64,000 bases of DNA from Pseudonocardia thermophila (GTDB taxonomy: Bacteria; Actinomycetota; Actinomycetes; Mycobacteriales; Pseudonocardiaceae), in the NCBI RefSeq assembly GCF_900142365.1, contig NZ_FRAP01000015.1, positions 1-64,000 on the forward strand, written 5' to 3'. The notes under the pieces were generated by a model, which was given only the letters and a program-made list of their open reading frames with translations, had not been told where the DNA came from and did no database searches. Below, in pieces: positions 33,993-49,533 of this stretch. A program made the position numbers and the translations under genes. How positions within the stretch are numbered: position 1 is the first letter of the stretch; each line of letters opens with the position of its first letter.

Positions 33993-34730
33993 TCATGCAT
34001 GGTTGAGCCCACTCATGGTCGTCATGCCTCCGTCCACCGGAAGACAAGTGCCGGTCAGCGCCCACCGGTTGGGGCCGATCGCGTAGAGCACCGCCTCGAC
34101 GACCTCACTGGACGAGATGAGCCGGCCGATCGGCTGCCGGCGGCGCAGTGCGGCGAGTTCAGCCGCCGGATCCGCGGAGTCGTCGAGCAGGTTGTCCACC
34201 CACGGCGTGTCGACCGTCCCAGGACTGATGCTCACGACACTCACACCGTCCTGGAGCAGATCGGCGGCCATCGCGCGGGTCAACGCGACGACGGCGCCCT
34301 TGGATCCGCTGTAGACCGCCCGTTCACGAAGGCCGGTCGCGGCAGCGACCGAGGCGATGTTGACGATGGTCCCGGCTTTCGAAGCCCTGAGGTGAGGCAG
34401 GGCCAGGCGGCTCACGCGGGCGAGACCGAACACGTTGACGGCGAAGACCCGCTCCCAGTCCTGGGCCGTCGAGGTCTCGACCGTGCCCTGCGCGCCGACG
34501 CCCGCGCAGTTCACGAGGACGTCGATTCCTCTCAGGTGGTCCACCGCGGTCCTGATCGCAGTCCGCGTTTGCTCCTCGTCGGTGATGTCGCAGGAGAGGA
34601 TCGGGATCGGGGCCTTCGCCGGGACCGCGATATCGAGGCCGATGACAGCGCGGCCGGTTTCCGCTAATCGGTTCACCAGGTGTGCACCGATGCCGGAGCC
34701 AGCACCGGTAACCACGACTCGATCGGACAC
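33993..34730 (-). CDS. short-chain dehydrogenase/reductase (SDR)
   Basis: A 245-aa classical SDR. Cofactor loop 'VVTGAGSGIGAHLVNR', 'CDITDEEQ', 'DVLVNCAGVG', catalytic Ser in 'IVNIASVAAATGL' and the Y-x3-K pair in 'AVYSGSKGAVVAL', C-terminal 'LTGTCLPVDGGMTT'. It should oxidise or reduce a hydroxy compound with NAD(P). GTG 34730 at the family start. Third gene of the IclR / D-threonine-aldolase-like / SDR unit (17-bp gap). The 181 bases from the DUF3105 stop to its end contain no recognisable gene. Confidence 0.92.
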   Translation of the reverse strand: MSDRVVVTGAGSGIGAHLVNRLAETGRAVIGLDIAVPAKAPIPILSCDITDEEQTRTAIRTAVDHLRGIDVLVNCAGVGAQGTVETSTAQDWERVFAVNVFGLARVSRLALPHLRASKAGTIVNIASVAAATGLRERAVYSGSKGAVVALTRAMAADLLQDGVSVVSISPGTVDTPWVDNLLDDSADPAAELAALRRRQPIGRLISSSEVVEAVLYAIGPNRWALTGTCLPVDGGMTTMSGLNHA

Positions 34731-34746: not shown

Positions 34747-35865
34747 CTACCGTGAGGTGCCGGCCGACATGCACGGCAACCAAGTGGTCGTATCGGCTTC
34801 GACGAGATGACATTCGCCCAGTGCGGCGAAGACCATGCACACATGGTTGGGGATCACGTGGACCCGTTCGCCGATCTTGAGCTGTGGTGCCGGTTCCGCG
34901 CCGGTCCAGCGCAGCCAGCCGTGTTCCTCGGACAGGCGTGCGACGATCCAGCCCGGCAGCTCTGGGATGAGCCCGTAACCCGGGAAGGCGTCCCGATGCG
35001 CCACCGCCGGGACGAGGTCAGCGCCAAGTGCTTTCGAGCCTGCATCGATGCATCCATAGCCCGGACGTGGGCTGCTCACCACGGTCGTGGCGACTCGAGC
35101 CGCGCAGTCGGCCAGAGCCGCGTTTCCGAGGGCCACCTGGCCGAGGTCGTTGAAAGCGTAGATCCCTGGTCGGAGCTCGGTGATACCGCTCTGTTCTGCC
35201 ATGATGCGCGCTGATGCGCTCGCCCCGACCGACACGTCGTGGACCGGTATCCCGGCAGCCCGGAGTTCCTCCGCCACACTGGTCATCAGACGTGCCACCT
35301 CTCTGCATCGTGCGCGGAGGTCAGCTTCGTCGGTCGCGGTGTACACGTTGCCCTCATGAGTCTGGATGCCCTGGAGGTGCAATCCGTCGAACCCGGCGAT
35401 CTCCCGGGCGACACGGACGGCCTCCTCAGGTCGTAAGCCCTCGCGGCCGAGACCGGAGTCGATCATGAGGCGAACGGCGAGCTCGGTGCCCTGCGCGGTC
35501 GCGACCTCTGCGAGCGATCGGGCACCTTCGACGCTGTCGGCCGCCACGATCAATTCAACGCGGCGGGACAGCTCGACGGCGCGACGAGCTTTGTGCTCTC
35601 CGACGAGGGGGTAGGCCACCACTAAGCGGTTGACCCCAGCACGCGCGAACTCTTCAGCCTCGCCGAGCTTGGCGACGGTCAGGCCATCTGCTCCGGCTGC
35701 GATCTGGCGAAGTCCGAGAGCGACGTTGCGGTGGGTCTTGGCATGCGGGACGAGGCGCTTGCCGTTGCTGTGGGCGTGCGCGGCCATACGGCTCAAGTTG
35801 CGCTCGAGGACCGCGGCATCGACGAGCAGCGACGGGGTGTCGTACGGGTCGGGTGTGATCACCAC
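34747..35865 (-). CDS. D-threonine aldolase / D-serine dehydratase-like PLP enzyme
   Basis: A 372-aa fold-type III protein. The alanine-racemase-like barrel carries the PLP lysine in 'RLVPHAKTHRNVA' near residue 43; the C-terminal domain has 'VIPNHVCMVF', the PNHxC zinc-site motif of D-threonine aldolases and DSD1-type D-serine dehydratases. It should cleave or dehydrate a beta-hydroxy-D-amino acid. This fits the nearby N-acyl-D-amino-acid deacylase, which would supply D-amino acids, and RidA, which removes enamine products. GTG 35865 overlaps the IclR gene end by 7 bp. Base composition here is visibly less GC-rich than the core genes. Confidence 0.9.
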   Translation of the reverse strand: MVITPDPYDTPSLLVDAAVLERNLSRMAAHAHSNGKRLVPHAKTHRNVALGLRQIAAGADGLTVAKLGEAEEFARAGVNRLVVAYPLVGEHKARRAVELSRRVELIVAADSVEGARSLAEVATAQGTELAVRLMIDSGLGREGLRPEEAVRVAREIAGFDGLHLQGIQTHEGNVYTATDEADLRARCREVARLMTSVAEELRAAGIPVHDVSVGASASARIMAEQSGITELRPGIYAFNDLGQVALGNAALADCAARVATTVVSSPRPGYGCIDAGSKALGADLVPAVAHRDAFPGYGLIPELPGWIVARLSEEHGWLRWTGAEPAPQLKIGERVHVIPNHVCMVFAALGECHLVEADTTTWLPCMSAGTSR

Positions 35866-36647
35866 GGCCGTTCACCCACGAAACCCAGCTCGGTCGAAAT
35901 GGCGTTGGCTTCCCCCTGGAGGACCTCGAGAAGTGTTTCTTTCACGGTTTCGCCACTGTCGATCCGAGACTGCGGTACGGTGCAACTCATAGCGCCGACG
36001 ACCTCGCGGGTGTGGTCGCGCAAAGGCACAGCAACACACATCACTCCCTCGGTGTACTCTCCATGGTCTTCGGCCCAGCCGCGGTTTCGTACCTCGTCGA
36101 GCACCGCGAGGAGCTCGCGTTTGGTCCCGATCGTTCGAGGAGTGAATCGTCGAAGCCGGTAGTTGCGCAGGCGTGACTTGAGTTCATCCTCAGGCAGGCC
36201 TGCGAGCAGGACCTTTCCGAGCCCGGTGGCGTAGGCGGGCAGCCTCGCCCCGATCTGGGAGACGAGTCGGAGCGGCTGTGATCCTTCGACCTTGTCGACG
36301 TAGACGACCGTGAGCTCGTCGAGCACTCCGAGCTGGACCGTCTCGTTCACCCGCTGCACGATCGCCTCGAGGTGAGGGTGCGCGATCCTCGGTAGGTCGA
36401 GGCTCTGGAGGTAGGCCCGACCGGCAAGCCCGGCGCGGACTCCGAGCTCGTAGTTCTTGCTCGTGGCGTCGAACCGGACCCAGTTGCGTTGGACGAGGGT
36501 TGCGAGCAGGCTGTGCGTGCTGCTGCGGGGGGCCCGCAGGCGCCGGGTGATCTCGGCGAACGACAGGGCACCTTCTTCGGCCAACAGCTCCAGAAGATCG
36601 ATGGTTCGATCTGCCGACTTCACCGTCGCCGGTCGTGGAGCGTTCAT
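35859..36647 (-). CDS. IclR-family transcriptional regulator
   Basis: Encodes 262 aa. An N-terminal winged helix (10-75: 'TIDLLELLAEEGALSFAEI', 'RLRAPRSSTHSLLATLVQR') and the IclR effector domain with 'VYVDKVEGSQPLRLVSQIG', 'LPAYATGLGKVLLAGLPEDE' and 'YTEGVMCVAVPLRDH'. It probably controls the surrounding catabolic genes; the matched 16-bp palindromes before the solute-binding protein and dehydrogenase genes are candidate sites. First gene of a three-gene unit. Confidence 0.93.
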   Translation of the reverse strand: MNAPRPATVKSADRTIDLLELLAEEGALSFAEITRRLRAPRSSTHSLLATLVQRNWVRFDATSKNYELGVRAGLAGRAYLQSLDLPRIAHPHLEAIVQRVNETVQLGVLDELTVVYVDKVEGSQPLRLVSQIGARLPAYATGLGKVLLAGLPEDELKSRLRNYRLRRFTPRTIGTKRELLAVLDEVRNRGWAEDHGEYTEGVMCVAVPLRDHTREVVGAMSCTVPQSRIDSGETVKETLLEVLQGEANAISTELGFVGERPW

Positions 36648-37033
36648 CTGTCCCCTCGTCGTTCCGTCCCCGCCGGAGCGCTGCGCGCGAAGCTCTGTCC
36701 GGGCGCCTACGCGGCGAGGCGCTCAGGCTCAATCGGTGTGCCCGGTTCACCGTCGGCCGCACCGGCGTCGGTCGGCTGGGCCGGGTGCTCATCTGCACCG
36801 CACCGACGTGGGCGAGATCGCGATCGAACGCAACGACGGTCCCCCTTGGCCAGGTCGAGCACCGCGGCGTCCAGCCCACCGCGGTGCTCGGCCTCGGTAC
36901 AGATTAGAACGCTGCCGGACCAGATTGCCGAGCAACTGCCCGGCCGGCCGGCCGACGCGCACGGCTCGGGACCAGGTCCAACTCGGTCCATCGTCGTGGG
37001 CGTGGCCCGGCTGTTCGAACAGTTTCTGGCTGC
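36648..37033. other. 386-bp intergenic region, no recognisable gene
   Basis: Between the IclR start and the stop of the upstream dehydrogenase. Overlapping frames exist on both strands but none shows a known family or good ribosome site. A 12-bp palindrome (CTGTTCGAACAG, 37011-37022) lies at the right edge. It must hold the IclR promoter and may contain decayed sequence. Confidence 0.5.
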
Positions 37034-37981
37034 TCAGGGAAGTAGGACGTACTTGATGGCCTCCCCGGGGGCGTTCATGAGGGAAGTGAAGATCTCCACA
37101 CCATCGGTGAGCGGCCGCGTGTCGACCCAACCCGTGGGGAGCCGAGGCATGAGATCGACCGCGACCTGGAAGTCCCGTCGGTCGTAACAGAACGTCGTGA
37201 TTACCCGATGCTCCTGCCGGATCATCGCTTGACCGTCGACGTCGGCCCCTGACCCGTGGAGGCCTACCCAGACCGCGGTGCCGCCCGGTCGGAGCCGCTC
37301 GAGGGACAGCCCCCGGGTCGTGCTCGAGCCCACCGTATCGAAGATCACGTCGTAGTCGTGGTCGAGGTCCCTCACCGCACGCGCGCCGGCGACCTCTGCC
37401 CAGGCGAGCCGGGAGTCGACCCGGTCGCAGAGGTCGACGCGGGGAAGACCCCGCAACTGACCGACGAGCGCGAGGGTGAAGCCGACCGCTCCGGCACCGA
37501 TGATCGCGACGCGCTGCGGCCACATGATGTGCTCCTCGACCAGGCGCATCGCGTGGACGGCGTTGGCAACGGGCTCGCTCGCGGCAAGGTGCTCAACGGG
37601 CGAGCTCAGGTCGCTCACGGCGTAGCAGCTGGTAGCGGGAACGGCGACGCGTTCGGCGAACCCTCCGGACCGATGGATACCGATGATCTGGCGCTGTCGG
37701 CAGATGTTCGGATAGCCCGCGTCGCAGAGGTCGCACCCGGCGCAGGAGATCATCGGGTTGACGACGACCGTCTCGCCGGTGTCCTCCCGGACACCCACGA
37801 ACTCGTGCCCCATGATGAGTGGGGGCACCCGGAACGGGCTCTGGGTAGCGACCCCCTCGAGTTCCGAGCCGCAGATGCCGACCGCCCGGACATCGACGAC
37901 GACTTCATCGTCCGCAGGCTTGGGGTCGTCGACCTCGAGAACCTCGAGGGTGAGCGGGCGGGTGTAGACGAGAGCTCGCAT
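37034..37981 (-). CDS. zinc-type medium-chain alcohol/polyol dehydrogenase
   Basis: A 315-aa MDR-family enzyme. Catalytic zinc ligands: Cys in 'AVGICGSELEGV' and His-Glu in 'IMGHEFVGV'. Structural zinc: four Cys in 'MISCAGCDLCDAGYPNIC'. Rossmann loop 'VAIIGAGAVGFTLALVG' and an acidic residue after strand 2 suggest NAD. It is about 30 residues shorter than typical sorbitol/threonine dehydrogenases, mainly in the N-terminal domain. ATG 37981. Follows the D-aminoacylase gene by 39 bp on the same strand; probably oxidises a hydroxyl of the sugar-like part of the substrate. Confidence 0.9.
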   Translation of the reverse strand: MRALVYTRPLTLEVLEVDDPKPADDEVVVDVRAVGICGSELEGVATQSPFRVPPLIMGHEFVGVREDTGETVVVNPMISCAGCDLCDAGYPNICRQRQIIGIHRSGGFAERVAVPATSCYAVSDLSSPVEHLAASEPVANAVHAMRLVEEHIMWPQRVAIIGAGAVGFTLALVGQLRGLPRVDLCDRVDSRLAWAEVAGARAVRDLDHDYDVIFDTVGSSTTRGLSLERLRPGGTAVWVGLHGSGADVDGQAMIRQEHRVITTFCYDRRDFQVAVDLMPRLPTGWVDTRPLTDGVEIFTSLMNAPGEAIKYVLLP

Positions 37982-38020: not shown

Positions 38021-39604
38021 TCAGGGGGTGAGGACGCGGCCGGCCCGGATCCCGGTGACATGGCCGTCCCGAACGGCGAACCGGCCGTTGACGAGCACGT
38101 GCCGGACGCCGACGGCCGGCGTGCGGGGCCGGTCGTACGTGGCGCGATCGGAGATCACGGCGGGATCGATGGCGACGATGTCGGCTCGCCGGCCAGGCAG
38201 CAACCGGCCTCTGCCGCGCTGACCGAGCCGGTCGGTCGCGCTGCTCGTCATGTGGCGCACCGCCTCGGGCAGCTCAAGGACTCCGAGCTCGCGCACGTAA
38301 GGGCCGAGGATCCGCGCGAAGCTCCCCCATCCGCGGGGGTGTGGGCGGGCACCTTCGAGGATGCCGTCGCTCCCGACGGTGTGCGCGGGGTGCTGCATGA
38401 GGGCACGCACGTGCTCCTCGATCCCGAAGTGCATGATGCACGTCGCCGCGAGATCGGAGTCGGCGATCAGGTCCAGCGTCGCTTCGGCCGGATCGCTCTG
38501 CAGGCGTTCGGCGACCTCGGTCAGCGAGCGCCCGACCGCCCATCTCCACGGTGCGGCCGTTCCGACGTCCGCGACGACGATCGTGTCCCAGTCGAGCGGC
38601 AGGCCCTGATGCCCGTCCGAACCCTCCTCGGCGAGGGCGCGGACGATGCGGCGGCGGTCGTCGGCGTTCCGCAGCCGGGCCCGCTGGATGCGCAGCGAGC
38701 CCTCCCGGGCCCAGGACGGCAGCTGGGAGGCCAGGGTCGACATGCCCGCGAGGTAGGGATAGGCGTCGAAGGAGAGGTCGATCCCGCGGCGCGGCGCCGA
38801 GTCCAGGAGGTCGAGCAGCTCGGGCAGCCGGTTGCGGTTCGCCGGGAAACTGAGGTGGGTGTGGGCGAGGTGGAGCGCGACCCCCGACTCCTGTGCGATG
38901 TCGAGGCACTCACCGTATCCACCGATGACGTCCGCTCCGTAGTTGCGGTGGTGCGGGCAGTAGTAGCCGCCGTGGCGCGCCACTACCGAACACAGCGCGA
39001 TGAGCTCGCTCGTCTCGGCGTAGCAGCCGGGCGCGTACGTCAACCCGGCGGACAGGCCGACCGCGCCCTGGGACAGGGCCTCGTCGAGCAGCGTGCACAT
39101 CTGCTCGATCTCCTCAGGGGTGGCCGGTCGCGCGGCGCTCCCCACGACGAGCAGCCGCAGTGTGGAGTGCGGGACGAGGAACGCGACGTTGACGGACGAT
39201 CCGTCGAGGCGATCGAGGAAGTCCGCGACCGATCGCCACTGCCAGTCCAGATCCGGCCGTCGTCCGTTCCAACCGGCGAGCTGGTCCGCGAGGTGTGCGA
39301 GGCTCTCGGCAGAGACCGGGGCGTAGCTGAGCCCGTCTTGCCCGATGACCTCCGTCGTCACGCCCTGCAGGAGCTTCGCCTCGTTGAGGTCGGAACTCAG
39401 CAGGTGCAGATCCGAGTGGGAATGCATGTCGACGAAGCCGGGTGTGAGCGTGAGCCCGGCGACGTCGACGACCTCGGCGTCCACCTCGGCGTCCGGCGGC
39501 AGCACATCGAGCAGGACGTCCCCCTCGACCAGCAGCGAGCCCGGGCGTGGTGGCGTTCCCGTTCCGTCGACGATGCTGCCCTGGCGCAGGAGTATGCGAT
39601 TCAT
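38021..39604 (-). CDS. N-acyl-D-amino-acid deacylase (D-aminoacylase, amidohydrolase superfamily)
   Basis: A 527-aa amidohydrolase that removes the acyl group from N-acyl-D-amino acids. Metal-site 'GFVDMHSHSDLHLL' near residue 57 (HxHxD), 'QGVTTEVIGQDG', 'CPHHRNYG', 'LHLAHTHLSF', the Asp in 'HTVGSDGILEGARPHPRGWG' split region, and the C-terminal 'GRRADIVAIDP' strand are all typical. Its ATG overlaps the upstream MBL gene stop by 4 bp. It is the best clue to the substrate class of this locus. Confidence 0.93.
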   Translation of the reverse strand: MNRILLRQGSIVDGTGTPPRPGSLLVEGDVLLDVLPPDAEVDAEVVDVAGLTLTPGFVDMHSHSDLHLLSSDLNEAKLLQGVTTEVIGQDGLSYAPVSAESLAHLADQLAGWNGRRPDLDWQWRSVADFLDRLDGSSVNVAFLVPHSTLRLLVVGSAARPATPEEIEQMCTLLDEALSQGAVGLSAGLTYAPGCYAETSELIALCSVVARHGGYYCPHHRNYGADVIGGYGECLDIAQESGVALHLAHTHLSFPANRNRLPELLDLLDSAPRRGIDLSFDAYPYLAGMSTLASQLPSWAREGSLRIQRARLRNADDRRRIVRALAEEGSDGHQGLPLDWDTIVVADVGTAAPWRWAVGRSLTEVAERLQSDPAEATLDLIADSDLAATCIMHFGIEEHVRALMQHPAHTVGSDGILEGARPHPRGWGSFARILGPYVRELGVLELPEAVRHMTSSATDRLGQRGRGRLLPGRRADIVAIDPAVISDRATYDRPRTPAVGVRHVLVNGRFAVRDGHVTGIRAGRVLTP

Positions 39605-40386
39605 CGCGCGGGCCGTTCCCTCACAGGGAAGCGGGTCGCGTTGCCCGGTTCGTGGCCGGCGACGGTGAGGTCCGTCGTCGCGAGATAGCGCTTGATCGTC
39701 GCTCGGACGCGGGCCGTGTCCTCGGCGATGCCGATCGGCCGGATCTCGGTGATGTTCCGTTCGAGGAAGGCCGCCTCGAGGATGCCGAGCATCCCTTCAG
39801 CGGTCCGCACCCGAACGCCGCCCGAGCCCGGGTGGTGCCCGCCGGTGGCATCGAAGATCAGCCCCGGCCACACCTCGACCTCGCTCTCGACGAGGTGGAG
39901 TCGCCGCTCGATCCCGAGCTTGCGCAAGAACATCCACGTCGGTGCGCTGAAGTAGAGGTGGGGGGCGGGATGCCCAGGCGGGTCGAGGAGGAACTCGAGC
40001 ACTCCGGGCAGCGCCATGTAGACCTCGGCCCGTGGCAGGAACTCCTCGAGGAGGCCGCCGCTGTGGTAGGTCAGGGTCTGGGTGAGCAGAACCGCGTCGA
40101 TGTCCTCGGGGCGGAGCGCGAAGGCCTCCAGCGCGCGGTCGATCCCGACGACGTCGGTGAACGTCGAACGTTCGTCGACTCCCCGGCAAGCCGCGTCGAG
40201 GTCTTCGAGGTCCTGCGGATCCATGGGCAGGCCCGTGTCGACCAGCGCGTGGCGGATCCCGTCGGTCACGTGCCAGATGTAGAAGGCGAGGTCGTGGAAC
40301 TCGGTGTCGTTGATGCCGAAGAACGCCTCCCACCCCGGGACGGGCAGGGTGGCGATGCGGAAGGCCTCGACGTCGTACGTGGTCAT
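39601..40386 (-). CDS. metallo-beta-lactamase-fold hydrolase with a degenerate HxHxDH motif
   Basis: A 261-aa MBL-fold protein like lactonases: 'HALVDTGLPMDPQDLEDL', 'DIDAVLLTQTLTYHSGGL', 'GGHHPGSGGVRV' and 'VAGHEPGNATRF'. The canonical THxHxDHxGG is here TQTLTYHSGG, so the first two His and the Asp are replaced, while the later His ligands remain. It may bind one metal or none; if active it might open a lactone. ATG 40386 overlaps the mutarotase stop (ATGA), and its own stop overlaps the deacylase start. Confidence 0.85.
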   Translation of the reverse strand: MTTYDVEAFRIATLPVPGWEAFFGINDTEFHDLAFYIWHVTDGIRHALVDTGLPMDPQDLEDLDAACRGVDERSTFTDVVGIDRALEAFALRPEDIDAVLLTQTLTYHSGGLLEEFLPRAEVYMALPGVLEFLLDPPGHPAPHLYFSAPTWMFLRKLGIERRLHLVESEVEVWPGLIFDATGGHHPGSGGVRVRTAEGMLGILEAAFLERNITEIRPIGIAEDTARVRATIKRYLATTDLTVAGHEPGNATRFPVRERPAR

Positions 40387-40727
40387 GCGCTCTCCGATGG
40401 GTCGGGTCGATCCGGGAAGCAGAAGACCTTCGGCAGCCCCCGGATGAGGGGCAGGTCGTCGTCGAGCGGACGGTCGAGGGTGAGGGCGATGACCTGGGCC
40501 GTCCACTCCGGGTCCGCGTCGTAGGACAGGGCGCTGCGCAGAGCTTCAGGATCCTCGTAGCGGAAGTGCGCGAAGACGTGATCACCGTCGAGGAAGATCG
40601 CGTAGTCGGTGATCGACGCCGCGGCGAGCTGATCTGAGATCGCCTTCGGCACCGGTGAGTGGAGCCGGACGTACTCCGGCCCCGCACCAGGGCGCAGGAC
40701 CATGTGGAAGGCGTGCTCGTGGCTCAT
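40383..40727 (-). CDS. L-rhamnose mutarotase-family protein (RhaM, DUF718)
   Basis: A 114-aa dimeric alpha/beta-barrel protein. 'HMVLRPGAGPEYVRLHSPVP', 'ITDYAIFLDGDHVFAHFRYED' split region and 'DPEWTAQV' are the family pattern; RhaM interconverts alpha and beta anomers of L-rhamnose and relatives act on L-fucose. This points to a 6-deoxy-sugar or related aldose in the substrate. Overlaps both neighbours by 4 bp. Confidence 0.88.
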   Translation of the reverse strand: MSHEHAFHMVLRPGAGPEYVRLHSPVPKAISDQLAAASITDYAIFLDGDHVFAHFRYEDPEALRSALSYDADPEWTAQVIALTLDRPLDDDLPLIRGLPKVFCFPDRPDPSESA

Positions 40728-41761
40728 AGGGACACCTCCGGCACCGTCCTCGCGTAGTACTCGTCGGTCAGTGCGACGACGCGGCGGGCGAGGTGACCGG
40801 ACATGCCCGGATGCACCGGCGCGCCGAGCGCGGCGTCGAGCAGGGCGTGCGTCGGGGCGAACGGGTCGTATGCGCCGGCGCCGGCCGCGTCGGCGAGCAA
40901 GCAGACCCGGCCGGCGTCGTCGACGAGACGTACCTGGTCGGCCATGGAGTCGAGGTGGAGATCGCCTCGGTCACCGTAGAGACTGAGGACCCACTGCGGT
41001 CGGGTGCTGTAGGGCCGGGTGCTGGCGCAGCTGAGGACCGCCGCACCGCCGCCGCTCAGGGGCAGCAGGACTCCGTTGTGCAGGTCGATCCGGGCACCGG
41101 CGGGGTAGGACGTCGCGGACATCGGTCCGATCTCCACGTCGTCTCCGAGGATCCAGAGGAGCAGCCCCAGCTGGTGGCTCATCGAGACCGCGGCCGACCC
41201 GCCCGCGGACACCGCCGGGTCGGTGTAGGTGGCCGGGCATGAGGCGACCCCGCCCCAGCCACCGTCGGTGCTTCCGCCGAGGAGCGCCCGGGTGCTGACC
41301 GCGAGGGTCATGCTCGCGTGCTCGATGCGTCCGACCCGACCCTCGGCGACCGCGCGGCGGGCGGCGGCGAAGACCGGGGTGGCGGCCCAGCCGAACCCGA
41401 CGAGCAGGTGGCAGCCACTCTCCTCCGCCGCGCGGACCATCGTGTCCGCGTCGGCGGTCGACATGGCGAAGGGCTTCTCGACGAGGACGTGAGCACCGGA
41501 GCGCAGCGCTGCGCAGACCTGCTCGACGTGGGCGACGGGTGGGCTGCTCACGACGACGCAGTCGAGGCCGAGCTCGAGCGCGTCCTGCCAGCGGGTCAGG
41601 TGGTTCGACGCACCGAACTGCTCGGCGAGGCGGCGGGCGGTTTCCGCGGACTGCGAGGTGACGACGACGAGCTCGGCGTCGTCCCGGGCCCGGACAGCAG
41701 GCAGATGACTGCTCTGCGACCAGGCACCTGCGCTGAGGACGCCGACGCGCAGACGGGGCAT
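40724..41761 (-). CDS. Gfo/Idh/MocA-family oxidoreductase
   Basis: A 345-aa NAD(P)-dependent enzyme of sugar and inositol metabolism. Rossmann start 'RVGVLSAGAWSQSSHLPAV', 'CVVVSSPPVAHVEQVCAALR', the family 'HVLVEKPFAMSTADAD' (the EKP lysine) and a C-terminal beta-sheet domain with 'MSHQLGLLLWILG'. The usual GxGxxG appears as SAGAWS, so nucleotide binding is slightly unusual. ATG 41761 has GAGAGG upstream. It is translationally coupled to the mutarotase gene and likely oxidises a sugar ring hydroxyl. Confidence 0.9.
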   Translation of the reverse strand: MPRLRVGVLSAGAWSQSSHLPAVRARDDAELVVVTSQSAETARRLAEQFGASNHLTRWQDALELGLDCVVVSSPPVAHVEQVCAALRSGAHVLVEKPFAMSTADADTMVRAAEESGCHLLVGFGWAATPVFAAARRAVAEGRVGRIEHASMTLAVSTRALLGGSTDGGWGGVASCPATYTDPAVSAGGSAAVSMSHQLGLLLWILGDDVEIGPMSATSYPAGARIDLHNGVLLPLSGGGAAVLSCASTRPYSTRPQWVLSLYGDRGDLHLDSMADQVRLVDDAGRVCLLADAAGAGAYDPFAPTHALLDAALGAPVHPGMSGHLARRVVALTDEYYARTVPEVSL

Positions 41762-41775
41762 TGCACCTCTCTCGA

Positions 41776-42705
41776 TCACTTGTCGTAGCCGGCAGCGAGA
41801 GCGCCGACGACCTGGCGCTGGAAGATCAGGACGATGACGACCGGCGGGATGAGGGCGAGGATCGTCGCCGCGGCGAGGGAGTTCCAGTTGAACTGCTGAG
41901 CGCTCTGGAAGCCTGCGAGCAGCGGAGGCACGGTCAACTGGTTCGTCAGCACGAGTGAGTAGAAGAACTCGCTCCACGCTTCGAGGAAGATCAGGACGCC
42001 GGCGGCGACCAGGCCCGGTCGGGCGAGCGGTGCTACGACGACCCAGATGATCTGCAGACGCGAGGCACCGTCGAGGCGAGCCGCCTCTTCGATCTCCACG
42101 GGCAGCTTGTCGAAGTAGTCCTTCAGGACCATGATCGCGATCGGCAACGTGAACACGTTGTAACTGATGACGAGCGCCCACGGGGTGTCGAGCAGGTCGG
42201 CGTACCGGAAGACGACGAAGAACGGACCGACGATCGCGATCGGCGGCACGACGCGCGCTGCGATGACGCCGAGGTGGAGCGGGCGCGATCCTCGGAAGGG
42301 ATACCGCGACATGCCGTAGGCGCACAGCCCCGCGATGAGCAGATTGAGGACGACGAGGATCGAGCTGACGAGGAAGCTCTGCGCGATGGCGTCGATGAGG
42401 CGTGTACCGATGTCGATCGTGCCGAACTGCTCGCGTCCGGTGTTGCCGGTGAGCAGGCCGACGTAGTTGTCGAGGGTGATGTCGGTCGGGATGATCGGCA
42501 TCGGGCGGACGCCGATCTGCTCGGCGGTCGTTACGCTGCTGATCGCGACGTACCACATCGGGAGCAGGATCCACAGCAGATAGGCGAGCCCGACGACGCC
42601 GAGGACGAGGCCCCGCTTGACCCGCCGGCGGGGACGGCGCCGGATGGCCGGGGTGTTCGACGACGCCGGAATCGTCGTCCTCGGCCGGTCGTGGGTGGCA
42701 GTCAT
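41776..42705 (-). CDS. sugar-type ABC transporter permease, MalG-like (CUT1)
   Basis: A 309-aa inner-membrane protein with six helices after a basic N-terminus ('LVLGVVGLAYLLWILLP' first). The EAA loop 'PVEIEEAARLDGASRLQIIW' near 210 contacts the ATPase. With the neighbouring permease and solute-binding protein it forms a CUT1 carbohydrate importer. No ATP-binding subunit is encoded nearby. One base separates it from the MalF-like gene. Confidence 0.94.
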   Translation of the reverse strand: MTATHDRPRTTIPASSNTPAIRRRPRRRVKRGLVLGVVGLAYLLWILLPMWYVAISSVTTAEQIGVRPMPIIPTDITLDNYVGLLTGNTGREQFGTIDIGTRLIDAIAQSFLVSSILVVLNLLIAGLCAYGMSRYPFRGSRPLHLGVIAARVVPPIAIVGPFFVVFRYADLLDTPWALVISYNVFTLPIAIMVLKDYFDKLPVEIEEAARLDGASRLQIIWVVVAPLARPGLVAAGVLIFLEAWSEFFYSLVLTNQLTVPPLLAGFQSAQQFNWNSLAAATILALIPPVVIVLIFQRQVVGALAAGYDK

Positions 42706-42706
42706 G

Positions 42707-43630
42707 TCATGCCTCGTTCCGGTAGAGCAGCCGGACGGTGATGAGACCGCCGACGAGGGAGAGCAGGGCGAGGATGACCGCCAGTGCCGACCCGGTCCCG
42801 ATATCGGTCGCGACGAACAGTTGGCGGTAGATCAGGATGCTCAGCACCTGAGTCGCGTCACCGGGGCCGCCCTGGGTCATTGCGAAGATCACGTCGAACT
42901 GCAGGAACGCGTAGATGATGTTGAGGACGATGACTGTCGCGAGGACCGGGCGCAGCCACGGAATCGTCACGTGACGGAAGCGGCCGAGCGGCCCGGCGCC
43001 GTCGATCGCGGCAGCCTCGTTGAGCTCCTTGGGAAGGGTCTGCAAGCCGGCGAGGAGCAAGATCGCCGCGAAGCACGCTTGCCGCCACGATGCGCCGATC
43101 ACCGCGATGATCAGCGCGGATCTCGGGTTGGAGAGGAAGTCGATGTAGCCGTCGGTGAGGCCGAGGTGCATGAGCAGCCCGTTCAGGCCGCCGACGCTGC
43201 CGTCGACGAACCAGCGCCAGATGATGCCGATGACCAACCACGGGCAGGCCCACGGGATGACCAGGAGGCCACGGAGGATCCCGCGGCCGGGGAAGGCCTC
43301 GTTGAGGAGCAGTGCGAAGCCGAGGCCGAGGCAGGTCGAGACGACGACGAACCCGAGCGAGAAGACGATCGTGACCCAGAGGGAGGACCAGAAGACCGGG
43401 CTGCCGAACACCGTCTCGTAGTTGGTGAGGCCGATGAACTCGCCGGGTGCGATGCCCGTCGGGGGTACGTCGTGGAAGCTGTAGACCAGGGTCAGAACCG
43501 CTGGGACGACGAGGAGCATCGCGAGCAGGGCCAGGGCAGGTGCCGACAGCCGCAGGCCGAACTGTCGATCGGCCCGCGACATCGGGGACACCTTGGCTCG
43601 CGACGCTGAGCGGATCAGCGTCAGGGCCAT
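42707..43630 (-). CDS. sugar-type ABC transporter permease, MalF-like (CUT1)
   Basis: A 307-aa membrane protein with about six helices ('LALLAMLLVVPAVLTLVYSF' first, 'GLLVIPWACPWLVIGIIWRW' central) and EAA loop 'LPKELNEAAAIDGAGPLGRF'. It pairs with the MalG-like permease. ATG 43630 is chosen: GGAGGG lies about ten bases upstream and it leaves a 4-bp gap to the solute-binding protein gene, whereas the longer frame to 43672 would overlap that gene. Confidence 0.94.
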   Translation of the reverse strand: MALTLIRSASRAKVSPMSRADRQFGLRLSAPALALLAMLLVVPAVLTLVYSFHDVPPTGIAPGEFIGLTNYETVFGSPVFWSSLWVTIVFSLGFVVVSTCLGLGFALLLNEAFPGRGILRGLLVIPWACPWLVIGIIWRWFVDGSVGGLNGLLMHLGLTDGYIDFLSNPRSALIIAVIGASWRQACFAAILLLAGLQTLPKELNEAAAIDGAGPLGRFRHVTIPWLRPVLATVIVLNIIYAFLQFDVIFAMTQGGPGDATQVLSILIYRQLFVATDIGTGSALAVILALLSLVGGLITVRLLYRNEA

Positions 43631-43634
43631 CGAA

Positions 43635-44963
43635 TCACAACCCTCCGCCCTTCTTGGCGGCCTTGGCGGCATCAGTCAGCGCCTTGACCGTCTCGGTGGG
43701 CGTCGCGTTGCCGAGGAGCAGGTTGTGCACGTGGTCGCCGACCTTCATCTGGAACGCCGAGTACCAGGACTGGTTGCGCACCGGCATCACGTTGGAACCA
43801 GTACCGAAGGTCGCCGAGAGGAACTTCAGGTCGTAATAGTCGGGGAAGGCTGCGATAACGGCGGGGTCGTCGAAGAAGTCGCTGTACGGGCCGACGAGGC
43901 CGGACGACTTCGCCCATTCGGTGAGCACGGTGAACTTGCCGTCGACGTCTTTCCAGCCGTAGTACTTCATCAGATCCCAGGCTCTCGCCTTCCGATCCTC
44001 ATTGGTGATCGTCCCCATCTGGAGGACGTCGCCGATCTGAAGGGTCTCGCCCGTCGCGCTGACCGGTGCGTGGAACAGGTTCGGTGACTCGGGCCCGTTG
44101 AGCTCACGCACTGCGGTGAGGAAGTAGTGGTGGAGAACGAAGAACGCGGCGCGGCCCTGGGCGAGCTCAGTCGAGAGCTTCCCGGGATCGTCGGTCAGGA
44201 CCGACGAGGCAGCGAGACCGTCCCTGTACATCGACTGCCACCACTCGAGGACCCGAACCGTCTTGGGGTCGTCGGCGAAGACCGGGTCGCCCTGGTCGTC
44301 GAAGGGGATCACCCCCTCGGAGAGGAGGTAGACGTTGAAGTACTCCTCGCAGAACTCCTTGATCCAGTATGCCACGTACGGGGTCTCGAGGCCGCCCGCC
44401 TTGAGCTTCTGGGCCTGGGCGTACGTTTCGTCGAGGTTCTTCGGAGGGCCGGAGAACCCGGCGTCCTCGACCATCCGCTTGTTGTAGTGCATGAGGTGCA
44501 CCGCGGAGTAGTAGGGAACGCTGATGATCTTGCCATCCGCCTGGACGTAGCGCGGTCGCGCGCTCGGGTAGAGGTTGGCGACCATGTCGTCGACCCCGGG
44601 GAGATCGTTCAGCGGGGTGGCCCAGTCCTGCTTGATGAAGCGTTCGCTGTTGTACGAGTGGTTGTAGAACACATCGATCGGGTCACCGCCGCGGAGACGG
44701 GTCTGGATCGCTGCGGCGTAACCGACGTTGGGGCTGATCGAGACGTCGACCGGGACGTTGTTCGCGGTCGACCAGCTGCTCACGAGCCGCTTGATCACCT
44801 CGGGCTGGTGGTCCCAGCCCATGAAGTTCAGCTTGCCGTCCCATGTGGACGAGCTGCTTCCGCCGCATGCGGCGAGGGCGGGGGATATCGCTGCCAGGAT
44901 GCCGGCGCTGCCGACCCCGCGAAGGAACGTCCGTCGCCCGAACGGTGCCGATTCTCCGACCAT
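43635..44963 (-). CDS. extracellular sugar-type solute-binding protein (Tat lipoprotein)
   Basis: A 442-aa ABC binding protein of the family 1 (sugar) type. The N-terminus has twin arginines 'GRRTFLRGVGSAG' and a lipobox ending ALAACGG near residue 33, so it is probably exported folded by Tat and lipid-anchored. 'DVFYNHSYNSERF' and 'GKIISVPYYSAVHLMHYNKR' are typical periplasmic-binding-protein segments. ATG 44963 is chosen over an in-frame ATG at 45014 because the shorter form has a normal signal peptide. First gene of the importer operon; a 16-bp palindrome lies 12 bp upstream. Confidence 0.93.
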   Translation of the reverse strand: MVGESAPFGRRTFLRGVGSAGILAAISPALAACGGSSSSTWDGKLNFMGWDHQPEVIKRLVSSWSTANNVPVDVSISPNVGYAAAIQTRLRGGDPIDVFYNHSYNSERFIKQDWATPLNDLPGVDDMVANLYPSARPRYVQADGKIISVPYYSAVHLMHYNKRMVEDAGFSGPPKNLDETYAQAQKLKAGGLETPYVAYWIKEFCEEYFNVYLLSEGVIPFDDQGDPVFADDPKTVRVLEWWQSMYRDGLAASSVLTDDPGKLSTELAQGRAAFFVLHHYFLTAVRELNGPESPNLFHAPVSATGETLQIGDVLQMGTITNEDRKARAWDLMKYYGWKDVDGKFTVLTEWAKSSGLVGPYSDFFDDPAVIAAFPDYYDLKFLSATFGTGSNVMPVRNQSWYSAFQMKVGDHVHNLLLGNATPTETVKALTDAAKAAKKGGGL

Positions 44964-44974
44964 GGTGCCATCCT

Positions 44975-44990
44975 GTTCATGTATGTGAAC
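44975..44990. promoter_or_regulatory. 16-bp operator-like palindrome before the solute-binding protein gene
   Basis: GTTCATGTATGTGAAC sits 12 bp before the start of the importer operon. Its twin GTTCATATACGTGAAC lies at 46049-46064 in the divergent dehydrogenase promoter. The arms GTTCA and TGAAC are identical in both. Confidence 0.7.
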
Positions 44991-45050
44991 TGTGTTCTGC
45001 CAGCTGAACTGCACGGGAGACTGGCAGGCGATGCGAGCGGCTGTCTAGGG

Positions 45051-45935
45051 CTACGCGCCGGTAAGTTCGGGTGCGCTGTTGCTGGTGGCCGGCGTGACCC
45101 GCTGTCGGATCGCGCCGAGTCCGTCGATCTCCATGGCGATCTCGTCGCCGGCGGACAGGTAGGGGAAGCGGCCGGAGAGCGCGACACCTTCTGGTGTGCC
45201 GGTGTTCACCAGGTCGCCGGGCTCTAAGACCATGAACTGGCTCAGTCGGAAGATGATCTCGGCGACGCTGAAGATCATGTCCGCCGTCGTCGAATCCTGG
45301 CGGAGTTCGCCGTTGACGTAGCTACGGAGCCGGAGGCGCTGCGGGTCGGCCACGAGGTCCGGGGTGGTGATCCATGGTCCGCAGGGGTTGAAGGTCTCGA
45401 ACGATTTCCCCTTCGACCATTGACCTCCTGAGCGCTCCAGTTGGTAGTGGCGTTCGCTCACGTCGTTGCTCAGGACGTACCCGGCGACGTGGTCGAGCGC
45501 TTGGTGGGCTGAGCGCAGGTAGCGGGTCCGGCGACCGATGACCACGCCGAGTTCGACCTCCCAGTCGAGGTGCTCCGCACCTGGCGGGATCAGGACCGCG
45601 TCGTTCGGGCCCACCAAGGTGTTCGGGGGCTTGTAGAAGATCACCGGCTCGGATGGCGGCTCGGCGCCCGACTCTGCAGCGTGGGCTGCGTAGTTCATGC
45701 CGATGCAGATGATGACCCCGGGGTTTCGCAGTGGGGAGCCGATGCGGGCACCGGTGATGTCGATTCGGGAGAGTGCTCCGGCGCGCAGAGCCGTCCGGGT
45801 CCGCTCGATGCCGGCGGAGGCGAAGAACGACGGGTCGATGTCCGTGCAGATCGGGGTGAGGTCGTAAGCGAGGTCCTGGTCGTCCATTACGACGGGACGC
45901 TCGCGGCCGAATGGACCGACGCGGAGCAGGCGCAT
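45051..45935 (-). CDS. fumarylacetoacetate hydrolase-family protein
   Basis: A 294-aa FAH-fold enzyme. 'PGVIICIGMNYAAHAAESG', 'EPVIFYKPPNTLVGP', the metal Glu/Glu/Asp set in 'HLDWEVELGVVIGR' and 'YVLSNDVSERHYQ', then 'GKSFETFNPCGPWI' and 'NTGTPEGVALS'. Relatives hydrolyse or decarboxylate 2,4-diketo acids, for example in non-phosphorylative L-fucose/L-rhamnose catabolism, which would suit the mutarotase, SDRs and HpcH-type aldolase here. ATG 45935. It shares a 138-bp promoter region with the divergent dehydrogenase gene. Confidence 0.93.
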   Translation of the reverse strand: MRLLRVGPFGRERPVVMDDQDLAYDLTPICTDIDPSFFASAGIERTRTALRAGALSRIDITGARIGSPLRNPGVIICIGMNYAAHAAESGAEPPSEPVIFYKPPNTLVGPNDAVLIPPGAEHLDWEVELGVVIGRRTRYLRSAHQALDHVAGYVLSNDVSERHYQLERSGGQWSKGKSFETFNPCGPWITTPDLVADPQRLRLRSYVNGELRQDSTTADMIFSVAEIIFRLSQFMVLEPGDLVNTGTPEGVALSGRFPYLSAGDEIAMEIDGLGAIRQRVTPATSNSAPELTGA

Positions 45936-46048
45936 GACGGAGGCCTTTCGTCGGAAGTGTGGGAGTGGCACGGGGCGTAGGTCGGGCCCTTGCGTCGCCG
46001 GGAAATTCGCCTCTACGCTAGCAGCAGAAGTTCGGATCTGTGAAATCA

Positions 46049-46064
46049 GTTCATATACGTGAAC
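46049..46064. promoter_or_regulatory. 16-bp operator-like palindrome in the FAH / dehydrogenase divergent promoter
   Basis: GTTCATATACGTGAAC lies 9 bp before the GTG of the plus-strand operon. It matches the palindrome at 44975-44990 at 14 of 16 positions. Binding here would overlap the ribosome-site region, fitting repression. Confidence 0.7.
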
Positions 46065-46073
46065 GGAGAGACC

Positions 46074-47120
46074 GTGCAGGCAGTCGTGTTCGACGGGATC
46101 GAGCAGATCCGCGTCGCAGAGGTGCCCGAGCCGGAGTGCGGTCCGGAGGACGTGATCGTCGACGTCGTCCTCTGCGGCATCTGTGGGTCCGACCTCGCGT
46201 CCTACCGGCGCGGCGCCCTCATCGGTCCGGGGCAGGTCATGGGGCACGAGTTCGCCGGGACCGTCTCCACCGTGGGTGCGCGTGTCGAGGGGATCGAGAT
46301 CGGTGATCGGGTGACGGTCAACCCGTTGTCGCACTGCGGCCGCTGCCGACAGTGCCGCACCGGGCACGCACAGCTGTGCCTGGCTGGTCTGCCGCACGTC
46401 GGATACGGCCTGCCCGGAGCCTTCGCGCCACGCGTCCGGGTGCCACGTGCTCGGCTCGGTGCCAACGTCCACGTGCTGCCCGACGGAGTCGACTTCGAGG
46501 CCGGAGCGCTCGTCGAGCCGTACGCCGTCGCGTTGCACGCCGTCAAGCTCTCGGCGCCTGACCCGCACTGCAGCGTTGCCGTCCTCGGGATGGGGCCGAT
46601 CGGTCTGGCGGTGACGCAGGTCCTACGGGCGCACGGCGTGACGAACATCGTCGGGGTCGAACGGTCGGCGCTACGCGGAGACCTCGCCTGCAAGCTCGGC
46701 GCCACGGTCGTCCTCGACGGGGCCGGCGCACGGCCGCTCGCGGAGGAGATCGTCGATGCGGCCGGACCGGTCGCGGCCGCGCTCGGCGGCGTCGACCACG
46801 TCTTCGAGACTTCCGGCGTCGGTGCGCTGCTCGAGGCCGGGATCGCGGCGGCCCGGCCCGGCGGAACCGTACGAGTCGTGGCCCTCCACGCCCAACCCGT
46901 ACCCCTCGATGCGGGGGCGCTCGTCGGCAAGGAGATCACGCTCGGGGGGAGCAACTGCTACCACGACGAGTTCGCCGAGGTTCTCGAGCTCATGCGGCAG
47001 GGCGTGCTCGCGACGAGCCCGCTCGTCTCCGGCGTCGTGGCGCTCGAGGACGCCCTGACCGGGTTCCTCGCCCAGCTCGACCCGGAGCGGGGCGTCAAGT
47101 ACATGGTCCGGCCGGCATGA
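46074..47120 (+). CDS. zinc-type medium-chain polyol/threonine dehydrogenase
   Basis: A 348-aa MDR enzyme of normal length. Catalytic zinc: 'VLCGICGSDLASYRRG' and 'QVMGHEFAG'; structural zinc Cys set in 'SHCGRCRQCRTGHAQLC'; cofactor loop 'VAVLGMGPIGLAVTQVL'. It probably oxidises a secondary alcohol of the imported substrate with NAD. GTG 46074 follows GGAGAG; an upstream GTG at 46059 overlaps the operator and adds five residues. Its stop overlaps a possible ATG of the following SDR gene. Confidence 0.92.
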   Translation: MQAVVFDGIEQIRVAEVPEPECGPEDVIVDVVLCGICGSDLASYRRGALIGPGQVMGHEFAGTVSTVGARVEGIEIGDRVTVNPLSHCGRCRQCRTGHAQLCLAGLPHVGYGLPGAFAPRVRVPRARLGANVHVLPDGVDFEAGALVEPYAVALHAVKLSAPDPHCSVAVLGMGPIGLAVTQVLRAHGVTNIVGVERSALRGDLACKLGATVVLDGAGARPLAEEIVDAAGPVAAALGGVDHVFETSGVGALLEAGIAAARPGGTVRVVALHAQPVPLDAGALVGKEITLGGSNCYHDEFAEVLELMRQGVLATSPLVSGVVALEDALTGFLAQLDPERGVKYMVRPA

Positions 47121-47143
47121 GCCGGATCGGTGAAGGGAAGAAC

Positions 47144-47935
47144 ATGGGTCGTCTCCAGGACAAGGTCGCCATCGTCACCGGCGCGAGCTCCGGCATCGGC
47201 AGGGCGACGTACGAGCTGTTCGCACGGGAGGGCGCCACAGTCGTCGGTATCGCGCGTCGCCCCGGTCCTCTGCAGGAGGTGACTGACGCGATCGTCGCTG
47301 ACGGCGGAACTGCGATCGCGGAGCCGATCGACCTGACCGACGACGCAGGAGTGGGCGCCATCATCGCACGGACGCTCTCGGACCTCGGCCGCATCGACGT
47401 CCTCGTCAACTGCGCAGGGGTCGGATACTCCTACGGGGAGAAGCACCCCGAGGCCATGGCGGCCGTCCACGAGACCGAACCCGAGCAGTGGCGGCACGTG
47501 CTGGCCCTGAACCTCGACACCTACTTCCACGCGATCCGGCACGTCGTCCCGGCGATGTTGAAAGCGGGTCGAGGGTCGATCGTCAACGTCGCGAGCATGA
47601 GCGGCATGACGGGCCTCACGAGCGCGCACACGTACACCGCGGCCAAAGGGGCGGTCATCAACCTGACCCGCTCCATGGCCATCACCTACATCGAGCAGGG
47701 GATCCGCACCAACACCGTTTCGCCGGGGCTGGTGGCGACCCCGATGGTGGCTTCGTTCATCGACACGCTCGAGGACCGGGACGTCGCGGTGAAGTTCTCT
47801 CCGGCCGCACGGCCCGGACAGCCCATCGAGATCGCCTACGCCAACCTCTTCTTCGCTTCCGACGAGTCGTCGTACTGCAACGGCTCGATGTTGATCGTGG
47901 ACGGCGGCACCACCGCCCGCGCCGTCGCCGAGTAG
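47144..47935 (+). CDS. short-chain dehydrogenase/reductase (SDR)
   Basis: A 263-aa classical SDR: 'VAIVTGASSGIGRATYEL', 'DVLVNCAGVGYSY', catalytic Ser in 'IVNVASMSGMTGL', Tyr/Lys in 'HTYTAAKGAVINL', 'TVSPGLVATPM' and C-terminal 'MLIVDGGTTA'. ATG 47144 has GAAGGGAAG upstream; ATG 47117, which overlaps the dehydrogenase stop as ATGA, would add nine residues. Second gene of the plus-strand catabolic operon. Confidence 0.92.
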   Translation: MGRLQDKVAIVTGASSGIGRATYELFAREGATVVGIARRPGPLQEVTDAIVADGGTAIAEPIDLTDDAGVGAIIARTLSDLGRIDVLVNCAGVGYSYGEKHPEAMAAVHETEPEQWRHVLALNLDTYFHAIRHVVPAMLKAGRGSIVNVASMSGMTGLTSAHTYTAAKGAVINLTRSMAITYIEQGIRTNTVSPGLVATPMVASFIDTLEDRDVAVKFSPAARPGQPIEIAYANLFFASDESSYCNGSMLIVDGGTTARAVAE

Positions 47936-47963: not shown

Positions 47964-48794
47964 ATGGTTTCCACCCAGTGGCCGATGGACACGCCCAACG
48001 TGTTGTCGGGCCTCGGCATCAAGCGCACCGCCCTCACTCCCGAGCAGCGCGAGCAGCTCGACGTGGAGGGGTACTTCATCGTGCACGACGTGTACACCCC
48101 CGAAGAGTGCCAGGAGATGGCCGCGGAGTTCGAGCGGATCGCGGAGGAGGAGGGCCGGTTCGGCGGCAGTGAGACGCGGAGCGAGCCCGGGGCTCGGCGA
48201 GTCGCCGCGGTGTTCAGCAAGTCCACGGCGTTCGACCGAGTCCTCACCTGTGCCCCGCTGCTCGTCGCTGCGTCCGAGCTGCTCGGCGAGATCCGTATCC
48301 ACGCCGACAACATGCGTGAGCCCCTCGTCGGGCACGGGCACCAGCCGCTCCATTCCGACGTGCCGTCCGAGGGCCCGGGGAAGTGGCGGCTGGTCAACTC
48401 CCTCCACCTCTTCGACGACATGACGAAGGAGAACGGTGGAACGCGCATCGTTCCGGGATCACATCGGTGGGCGTCGCTGAACATCCCGCCGGCGAACATC
48501 GAGAAGGGCTTCGTCGAGCCCGAGGACCTCGACCGGAGCCACATCCCCGAGGACCCCTTCGCCCCGCATCCCGAGGAGATCGTGCTCGAGGCTCCGGCCG
48601 GCAGCGTCGTGGTGCTCAACGCGCACTTGTGGCACGGCGGGACGAAGCGGGTGAGTGATGCCCCGCGTCGCATGCTGCACCTGAGCATCTGCCGACGTGA
48701 GCTGGACCAGCAGCTCAACCAGCGGGAGTACGTCACCGACGCGATGCGTGAGCGGATGAGCGACGAACTCCTCTGGCTGCTGGACGTCCTGTGA
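47964..48794 (+). CDS. phytanoyl-CoA dioxygenase (PhyH)-family Fe(II)/2-oxoglutarate enzyme
   Basis: A 276-aa double-stranded beta-helix protein. The iron ligands can be read as His and Asp in 'QPLHSDVPSEG' and the distal His in 'NAHLWHGGTKRVS', with the 2-oxoglutarate Arg shortly after ('DAPRRMLHLS'). It would hydroxylate an unactivated carbon using O2 and 2-oxoglutarate, perhaps the first attack on the imported compound. ATG 47964 follows AAGGAG. Its stop overlaps the RidA start (GTGA). Confidence 0.93.
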   Translation: MVSTQWPMDTPNVLSGLGIKRTALTPEQREQLDVEGYFIVHDVYTPEECQEMAAEFERIAEEEGRFGGSETRSEPGARRVAAVFSKSTAFDRVLTCAPLLVAASELLGEIRIHADNMREPLVGHGHQPLHSDVPSEGPGKWRLVNSLHLFDDMTKENGGTRIVPGSHRWASLNIPPANIEKGFVEPEDLDRSHIPEDPFAPHPEEIVLEAPAGSVVVLNAHLWHGGTKRVSDAPRRMLHLSICRRELDQQLNQREYVTDAMRERMSDELLWLLDVL

Positions 48795-49177
48795 CGAAGC
48801 CGCCGATCGAGCGTCGGCACGGCTTCACGACGCTGGCGCCCCCGCCAGCCGGGCCGTACTCCCAGGCCGTCCGCGCGGGCGGGATCGTCGTCTGCGCGGG
48901 GCAGGCCGGCATCACCCCGGACGGAACACCGCTCGGGGGGTTGGAGGCCCAGCTCCGCCAGACGTTCGCGAACATCGCCGCAGCCCTGGCGACGTGCGAT
49001 GCGACGCTCGCCGACGTCATCTCCACGCGGGTCTTCCTGACCGATCCCGCCCAGTTCGAGGAGATGAACGCGATCTACCGCGAGTTCTTCTCGGAGCCGT
49101 ACCCGGCCCGGACCACCGTGTACGTCGGCCTACCTGCACCGCTCCTGGTCGAGGTCGACTGCCTCGCCGTGGTCTGA
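48791..49177 (+). CDS. RidA (YjgF/YER057c/UK114) family enamine/imine deaminase
   Basis: A 128-aa trimer-forming protein: 'PPPAGPYSQAVRAGGIVVCAGQ', split here, 'QLRQTFANIAAALA', 'YREFFSEPYPARTTVYVGLP' with the conserved Arg that binds the substrate carboxylate, and 'LVEVDCLAVV' at the end. RidA hydrolyses reactive enamines made by PLP-dependent dehydratases, so the D-threonine-aldolase/dehydratase-like enzyme of this locus is a natural partner. GTG 48791 is coupled to PhyH. Followed by a strong terminator. Confidence 0.94.
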   Translation: MTKPPIERRHGFTTLAPPPAGPYSQAVRAGGIVVCAGQAGITPDGTPLGGLEAQLRQTFANIAAALATCDATLADVISTRVFLTDPAQFEEMNAIYREFFSEPYPARTTVYVGLPAPLLVEVDCLAVV

Positions 49178-49267: not shown

Positions 49268-49533
49268 GCACTCGCTGGAGCACGGCGCGGTGTGGATCGC
49301 CTACGACCCGGCGCGCCTCTCGGCGGCCGACGTGGCTGCGCTCGCCACGCTGGTGGAGGGCAAGCCGTACATGATCATCTCGCCGTACCCGCAACCCCAA
49401 CACGCACCCCGAGCCGAACGCCTCCTGCGACATCCCGAGCCGTTACTTCGACCAGGACGACCCGCCGCCGTTCCAGCCGCTGCCCGCGCAGAGCGAGATC
49501 GACGGCGCGACGATCGTGGCGGAGTCGGACTGA
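49268..49533 (+). pseudogene. truncated, frameshifted copy of the DUF3105 lipoprotein gene
   Basis: Nearly identical to the 3' half of the intact DUF3105 gene (33445-33811): both parts align, with about nine mismatches over 266 bases, including the last codons and stop (TGA 49531-49533). A 101-bp segment is missing after 49391, which shifts the frame, and the 5' half with start and lipobox is absent. It cannot make the protein. It is in the same orientation as the left copy and marks the right edge of the 15.5-kb catabolic segment. Confidence 0.93.

Follow-up and report, generated by a model that had tools for sequence, protein, structure and literature searches.

IclR-family regulators follow published trends in the architecture of their binding sites. 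The main text of PMC8222616 (Suvorova and Gelfand 2021) gives the group-1 IclR consensus as GKTYCRYW3-4RYGRAMC, reports that in 94 of 181 orthologous groups the palindromes come in tandem at a distance of 18-22 bp, locates the main peak of site centres at -22 and a second one at -3 to +1, and associates even-length sites with a preference for Ser30 and an avoidance of Arg33 in the regulator. The two tandem sites described here lie in the 64-kb stretch of DNA that was analyzed (the window) and resemble the group-1 even-length subgroup NGT-12-ACN of that survey in their GTTC-N8-GAAC outer bases, their near-start position, the arrangement in tandems about two DNA turns apart, and a nearby regulator with Ser30 and without Arg33, but they differ in the inner bases, which are RA...TY in the subgroup and AY...RT in the window boxes. 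The site of NpdR, an actinobacterial IclR-family regulator of Rhodococcus opacus, is given in Table 1 of PMC8222616 as GTTCMRYATMRTGAWS; it too has 16 bases, a GTTC start, and TGA in the right half but, compared by site alone, it has other inner bases, and NpdR serves trinitrophenol use. The words "aminoacylase" and "D-amino" are absent from the main text of PMC8222616, and our search of the literature found no paper joining IclR, D-aminoacylase, and operator.

The genes of the locus recall two further systems. The best NCBIfam matches of the local IclR protein and of the local pyridoxal 5'-phosphate (PLP) enzyme are BhcR (E 1.6e-52) and BhcC (E 6.5e-39), each of them falling well short of the curated cut-off. 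BhcR belongs to the beta-hydroxyaspartate cycle of Paracoccus and, as presented in PMC11323563, is an activator in vivo with one potential palindromic site upstream of the -35 region, in contrast to the start-adjacent tandems found here. The combination of D-aminoacylase-type, PLP-enzyme, and RidA genes is reminiscent of the ong cluster, with which marine Pseudoalteromonas uses N-acetyl-glucosaminate. However, the repressor OngR and the inner-membrane transporter of that cluster, as described in PMC9537276, are a MurR/RpiR-family protein and a sodium symporter, whereas the window has an IclR and an ABC importer, and it has in addition dehydrogenases, an FAA hydrolase, and a PhyH protein. Neither a MurR/RpiR repressor nor a KDG kinase, nor indeed any kinase, was found among the identified genes of the locus.

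The catabolic segment extends over 33.8-49.3 kb of the window. On the minus strand, the importer run begins with the ABC importer solute-binding protein (43635-44963), followed by two BPD_transp_1 permeases (42707-43633, with its start chosen inside a longer ORF, and 41776-42705), a Gfo/Idh/MocA oxidoreductase (40724-41776), an L-rhamnose-mutarotase-family protein (40383-40727), a metallo-beta-lactamase-like (MBL) protein without a Pfam match but with a weak NCBIfam match to lactonase YtnP (39601-40398), a D-aminoacylase-type amidohydrolase (38021-39604), a zinc-type dehydrogenase (37034-37981), the IclR-family regulator that we propose as the box binder (35859-36647), a D-threonine aldolase/D-serine dehydratase-type PLP enzyme (34747-35865), and a short-chain dehydrogenase (33993-34727, the ORF as listed starting at 34844 and the start used being 34727). 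The PDB relatives of the amidohydrolase include D-aminoacylase (E 3.3e-74), which is the better match, and PpOngB (E 1.2e-61); the PLP enzyme belongs to the D-threonine aldolase/D-threo-3-hydroxyaspartate dehydratase type. The plus strand carries a zinc-type alcohol dehydrogenase (46074-47120), which is the first gene of the second run, a short-chain dehydrogenase (SDR; 47117-47935), a PhyH-family dioxygenase (47964-48794), and a RidA-family protein (48791-49177). Between the two tandem sites lies a minus-strand FAA-hydrolase-family gene (45051-45935). The dehydrogenase run had been called divergent, which is correct with respect to the FAA-hydrolase gene and does not apply directly to the importer.

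The segment was probably acquired, together with its D-aminoacylase- and D-threonine-aldolase-type genes. To its left stands an intact DUF3105 gene (33056-33811) and to its right a 98% identical copy in two pieces (49268-49524), and the segment looks as if it had been inserted at, or had duplicated, the DUF3105 gene. The importer gene has no match at E <= 1e-60 in two other genomes of the same genus; at that threshold it was found in the window and two other genomes among 298 of the order and in the window alone among 394 of the class. A PhyH match at E <= 1e-40 is absent from all 199 other genomes of the family, the single positive among 200 being the window's own. D-aminoacylase matches at E <= 1e-80 are present in 130 of the 200 family genomes, own included. 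The 11 D-aminoacylase relatives that we inspected (L122-L132, with flanks of up to about 1.5 kb) lack an IclR match at E <= 1e-10 and have a best tandem score of 17.8, and so the presence of the D-aminoacylase gene is not in itself a predictor of the operator.

The original prediction was of two 16-bp palindromes, differing at two positions and placed 9-12 bp from a start codon, and both sequences are present exactly as claimed. GTTCATGTATGTGAAC at 44975-44990 is separated by 11 bp from the ATG of the solute-binding-protein gene (start 44963, minus strand), GTTCATATACGTGAAC at 46049-46064 is separated by 9 bp from the GTG (46074) of the dehydrogenase gene, and the two sites are mismatched at 2 of 16 positions. 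Their description as palindromes is right as to symmetry, with 5-bp arms and a 6-bp spacer, but full self-complementarity is absent, and each is only the start-proximal half of a putative tandem operator. Exactly 19 bp upstream of each palindrome, centre to centre, a second box is found at both window loci. The resulting four 16-bp boxes, all of a GTTC-N8-GAAC-like form, make two tandem pairs that each span 35 bp. Before the importer the tandem reads GTTCAGCTGGCAGAAC-ACA-GTTCACATACATGAAC on the coding (minus) strand, with box A2 (GTTCAGCTGGCAGAAC) at 44994-45009 and the start-proximal box A1 (GTTCACATACATGAAC) at 44975-44990; before the dehydrogenase it reads GTTCGGATCTGTGAAA-TCA-GTTCATATACGTGAAC on the plus strand, with box B2 (GTTCGGATCTGTGAAA) at 46030-46045 and the start-proximal box B1 (GTTCATATACGTGAAC) at 46049-46064. 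The start of the FAA-hydrolase gene is 94 bp from box B2, which may place this gene, too, under the control of pair B.

Counted from the start codons, the two sites are centred near -19.5 and -17.5. Boxes A1 and B1 match the group-1 pattern KTYCRY-N4-RYGRAM without mismatch and B2 matches it at one mismatch; A2 does not match at one mismatch or fewer and has only the outer GTTC and GAAC in common with it. The four central bases are A or T at three positions in each of A1, B1, and B2 and at one position in A2. This pattern is a loose one, with three zero-mismatch places in the window (the third at 22651) against 1.08 expected.

The genome that we scanned comprises 6,098,214 bases in 47 contigs. 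The many random genomic hits that a genome-wide motif scan might have returned were not seen: the 35-bp tandem pattern GTTCN8GAAN4GTTCN8GAAC occurs without mismatch in the 6.1-Mb genome at these two loci only, and all other listed places have two or three mismatches. Such near-matches, of which there are 44 and 50 at up to three mismatches versus 13 and 6 for the reversed control, are commoner than in the control but are not read as sites. For the single box, zero-mismatch matches to GTTCAYRTRYRTGAAC are confined to the two palindromes, both in the window and in the whole genome; one further genome place, C5:80650, is reached at one mismatch; it falls within the frame of an EamA-family transporter and is without a tandem partner. 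At up to two mismatches there are 19 and 22 genome matches on the two strands, where the reversed control pattern gives 3 and 5, and within the window 10 matches were counted at up to three mismatches on both strands versus 2.41 expected, a number reached by one of 100 shuffles. The arms alone, GTTCAN6TGAAC, occur at 12 genome places versus one for the reversed control and thus are not diagnostic. It is the partner box that separates the two loci from the rest: of 15 genome places examined, a partner score of at least 7 of 8 is reached at these two alone, the other 13 scoring 6 or less, and when the 40 bp upstream of each box were shuffled, an equally good partner at 18-22 bp arose in 7 of 100,000 cases for the importer and 255 of 100,000 for the dehydrogenase.

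Related importer loci were found in three distant actinobacteria. Actinotalea caeni (L034) and an actinobacterium of the window genome's order (G185) encode the binding protein, two permeases, Gfo/Idh, D-aminoacylase, and PLP lyase with an IclR that belongs to the same same-strand gene run as the importer, and in a Nocardioidaceae genome (L041) the genes for the binding protein and two permeases have an iclR gene in their neighbourhood. The presence of IclR was checked in 17 loci or genomes, a set without L046-L049, L051-L054, L056, and L057. A first matrix included the sites of the relatives and hence was circular for them, and the only hold-out is a matrix made with no other sites than the four window boxes; with it 22 loci were scanned, L046, L049, L053, and L054 being left out. 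The importer-upstream sites of the relatives had been seen by eye before this matrix was built, and the choice of loci was not blind. With the hold-out matrix, the top tandem is directly upstream of the importer gene in A. caeni (36.9; best of 10 shuffles 16.7) and in G185 (25.7; best of 10 shuffles 17.7). In the Nocardioidaceae locus, the top tandem (31.7) occupies the intergenic stretch that separates iclR from its divergent neighbour, and the second (29.8; best of 10 shuffles 16.2) is upstream of the importer. The importer-upstream tandem site consequently ranks first in two of the three distant loci and second in one. The tandem spacing is 20 bp in all three, and their upstream boxes are weak. 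The likely importer start codon falls inside the proximal box in A. caeni (at 9959) and in G185 (L062 at 18622).

The exact arms GTTCAN6TGAAC were matched in 13 of 61 loci, all from the window's own genome and none from a relative; the form that recurs is therefore a looser one. A 15-base version of the proximal box, modelled on the sites described above, occurs without mismatch at one place each in the A. caeni (4.0 Mb) and G185 (7.2 Mb) genomes, in both cases the importer promoter. In the Nocardioidaceae genome it occurs without mismatch at five places, one being the importer promoter and one being inside a permease gene. Another of the five, C9:48711 (L134:8691-8726), is a further tandem pair, with 20-bp spacing, before a binding-protein gene in a locus that encodes relatives of the window's FAA hydrolase (58%), RidA (61%), and MBL protein (48%) and another IclR (34%). 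The tandem at this second locus hints that both modules may belong to a single pathway governed by one motif.

Beyond these three loci the pattern fades. In four Devosia loci (L037, L038, L039, and L058) the top tandem is upstream of the importer at 17.6-18.1, with best-of-10 shuffles of 19.4, 13.8, 18.9, and 17.2, and in L036 the second-best tandem is upstream of the importer at 13.4 (shuffles 16.5). The half-sites of the four top tandems look differently spaced, with TTC-N6-GAA in L037-L039, and the aligned Devosia IclR proteins (L036, L037, and L058), with Thr30 and Arg33, are 36-37% identical to the local protein. L037-L039 have an A/T-rich palindrome pair, CTTTTCATATGCGAAAAG and a neighbour 20 bp on, at a distance of about 280 bp upstream from the importer match. 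No importer-upstream tandem above shuffles was detected in Kaistia L035 (IclR 39% identical), in L040, or in any of 12 Chloroflexota loci, and G073, scanned with the first matrix only, gave nothing upstream of the importer.

The local IclR has both domains of the family above the Pfam cut-offs (HTH_IclR, E 1.2e-13; IclR_C, E 1.7e-51) and is 49, 48, and 46% identical to the A. caeni, G185, and Nocardioidaceae proteins, respectively. A second, less similar IclR is encoded nearby in A. caeni (30% identity to the local IclR) and in G185 (35%). Helix numbering was fixed through TtgV in Table 5 of PMC8222616 (Pro46 = 27, Thr49 = 30, Arg52 = 33) and put on the local IclR by eye, on sequence alignment A1. 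In its recognition helix, PRSSTHSLL, the PRSSTHS stretch has serine at positions 30 and 33; the three actinobacterial orthologues all have Ser30, with Gly, Ala, and Gly at position 33. Ser30 without Arg33 agrees with the published trend for even-length sites, which is a correlation. No operator-like box was found before iclR itself. The 386-bp gap between the dehydrogenase and iclR (36648-37033) is without a box of operator quality, and it may hold a separate iclR promoter.

A standard promoter scan found no promoter. A relaxed hand pattern picks out a possible importer-operon promoter, TAGACA-N18-CAGTCT (45018-45047, minus strand), which is weak and ends 8 bp before A2, and a possible dehydrogenase-operon promoter, TTGCGT-N18-TACGCT (45990-46019, plus strand), also weak, which ends 10 bp before B2. 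The boxes adjoin the ribosome-binding sites. A place just downstream of promoter-like sequences and abutting ribosome-binding sites is a repressor position.

Such a place would also suit RNA hairpins of the 5' leader, acting by attenuation or translation control, and short stems are possible in the palindromes. This explanation is very improbable, since five leader stretches fold no better than their shuffles (z -0.22 to 1.27), and the predicted folds of A. caeni and G185 have no stem in the proximal box, though the box pattern is kept. A chance likeness of two palindromes without regulatory meaning could appeal to the 12 genome places of the arms, but it would have to account for identical 19-bp tandem partners, a tandem that is unique in the genome, two start-codon positions, and recurrence in relatives, and we regard it as extremely unlikely.

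There are two other explanations that accept the sites as operators and change the protein. The genome encodes at least 42 GntR proteins (150 of 200 candidates scored) and seven LacI proteins, interrupted palindromes are generic, and it had been argued that the symmetry would suit a GntR or LacI protein encoded elsewhere as well. That argument keeps the large number of such proteins on its side, but it is weakened by the 19-bp tandem, the group-1 consensus, and the recognition-helix residues. No GntR or LacI match lies inside the segment (again with 150 of 200 GntR candidates scored), the sole one in the window being a GntR (17679-17867) some 27 kb away from site A, and IclR is the only kind of regulator found among the identified segment genes. 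Among 17 relatives' proteins given to Pfam, which represent part of the ORFs of the three actinobacterial loci, there is no GntR or LacI; they gave one ArsR, encoded in G185 at a distance of about 5.5 kb from the importer, and one sub-threshold GMT-type winged helix-turn-helix in the Nocardioidaceae locus, leaving IclR as the only regulator family seen across all four loci. With the 19-20-bp tandems and the GTTC-N8-GAAC boxes agreeing with IclR trends, operators of another regulator family are unlikely, and, judged from sequence, the IclR family would be clearly the best candidate. An even more doubtful binder is any of the other 27 IclR-family proteins that the genome encodes. There are 28 IclR_C proteins in all and the motifs of the family overlap, but in the profile listing 27 of the 28 have Arg33, the residue avoided by even-length sites; the sole exception is the segment's own IclR, and importer and iclR occur together in the three distant actinobacterial loci.

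Our preferred reading, to which we give a probability of about 0.85, is that the palindromes are the start-proximal halves of tandem operators bound by the local IclR, which would repress both runs. The original prediction of a shared operator, a small regulon, and the local IclR as best candidate is supported by the uniqueness of the tandem and by its recurrence before the orthologous importer; these, like the boxes and their spacing, are present in the sequence itself. The IclR protein encoded at 35859-36647 would bind both tandem operators, probably as two dimers per site forming a tetramer on the same DNA face, between promoter and ribosome-binding site. Bound there, it would block transcription of the first run, from the ABC importer and the D-aminoacylase to IclR and the PLP lyase, and of the second run of dehydrogenase, SDR, PhyH, and RidA genes, perhaps together with the FAA-hydrolase gene, each run being a presumed operon. 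A substrate or intermediate at the IclR C-terminal domain would release the dimers. The circuit would be autoregulated because iclR sits downstream in the first run. It would be an ordinary type of bacterial control, in an unusually clear double-site layout.

What the regulon would serve is a more tentative matter. One possibility, which we put forward with considerable reserve, is that an N-acylated amino-sugar acid or D-amino acid is imported and deacylated by the products of the regulon, and that these steps are coupled to an oxidative branch of FAA-hydrolase, PhyH, and RidA functions, a combination that would be rare among the sampled relatives. A visual similarity between two palindromes becomes a specific candidate regulon of one named protein, four boxes, and two promoters. 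The local IclR would be one more case in line with the published trend that links residues to sites, in which Arg33 is absent and the site is of even length, and the shared operator would link the dehydrogenase-SDR-PhyH-RidA genes with the importer and D-aminoacylase pathway.
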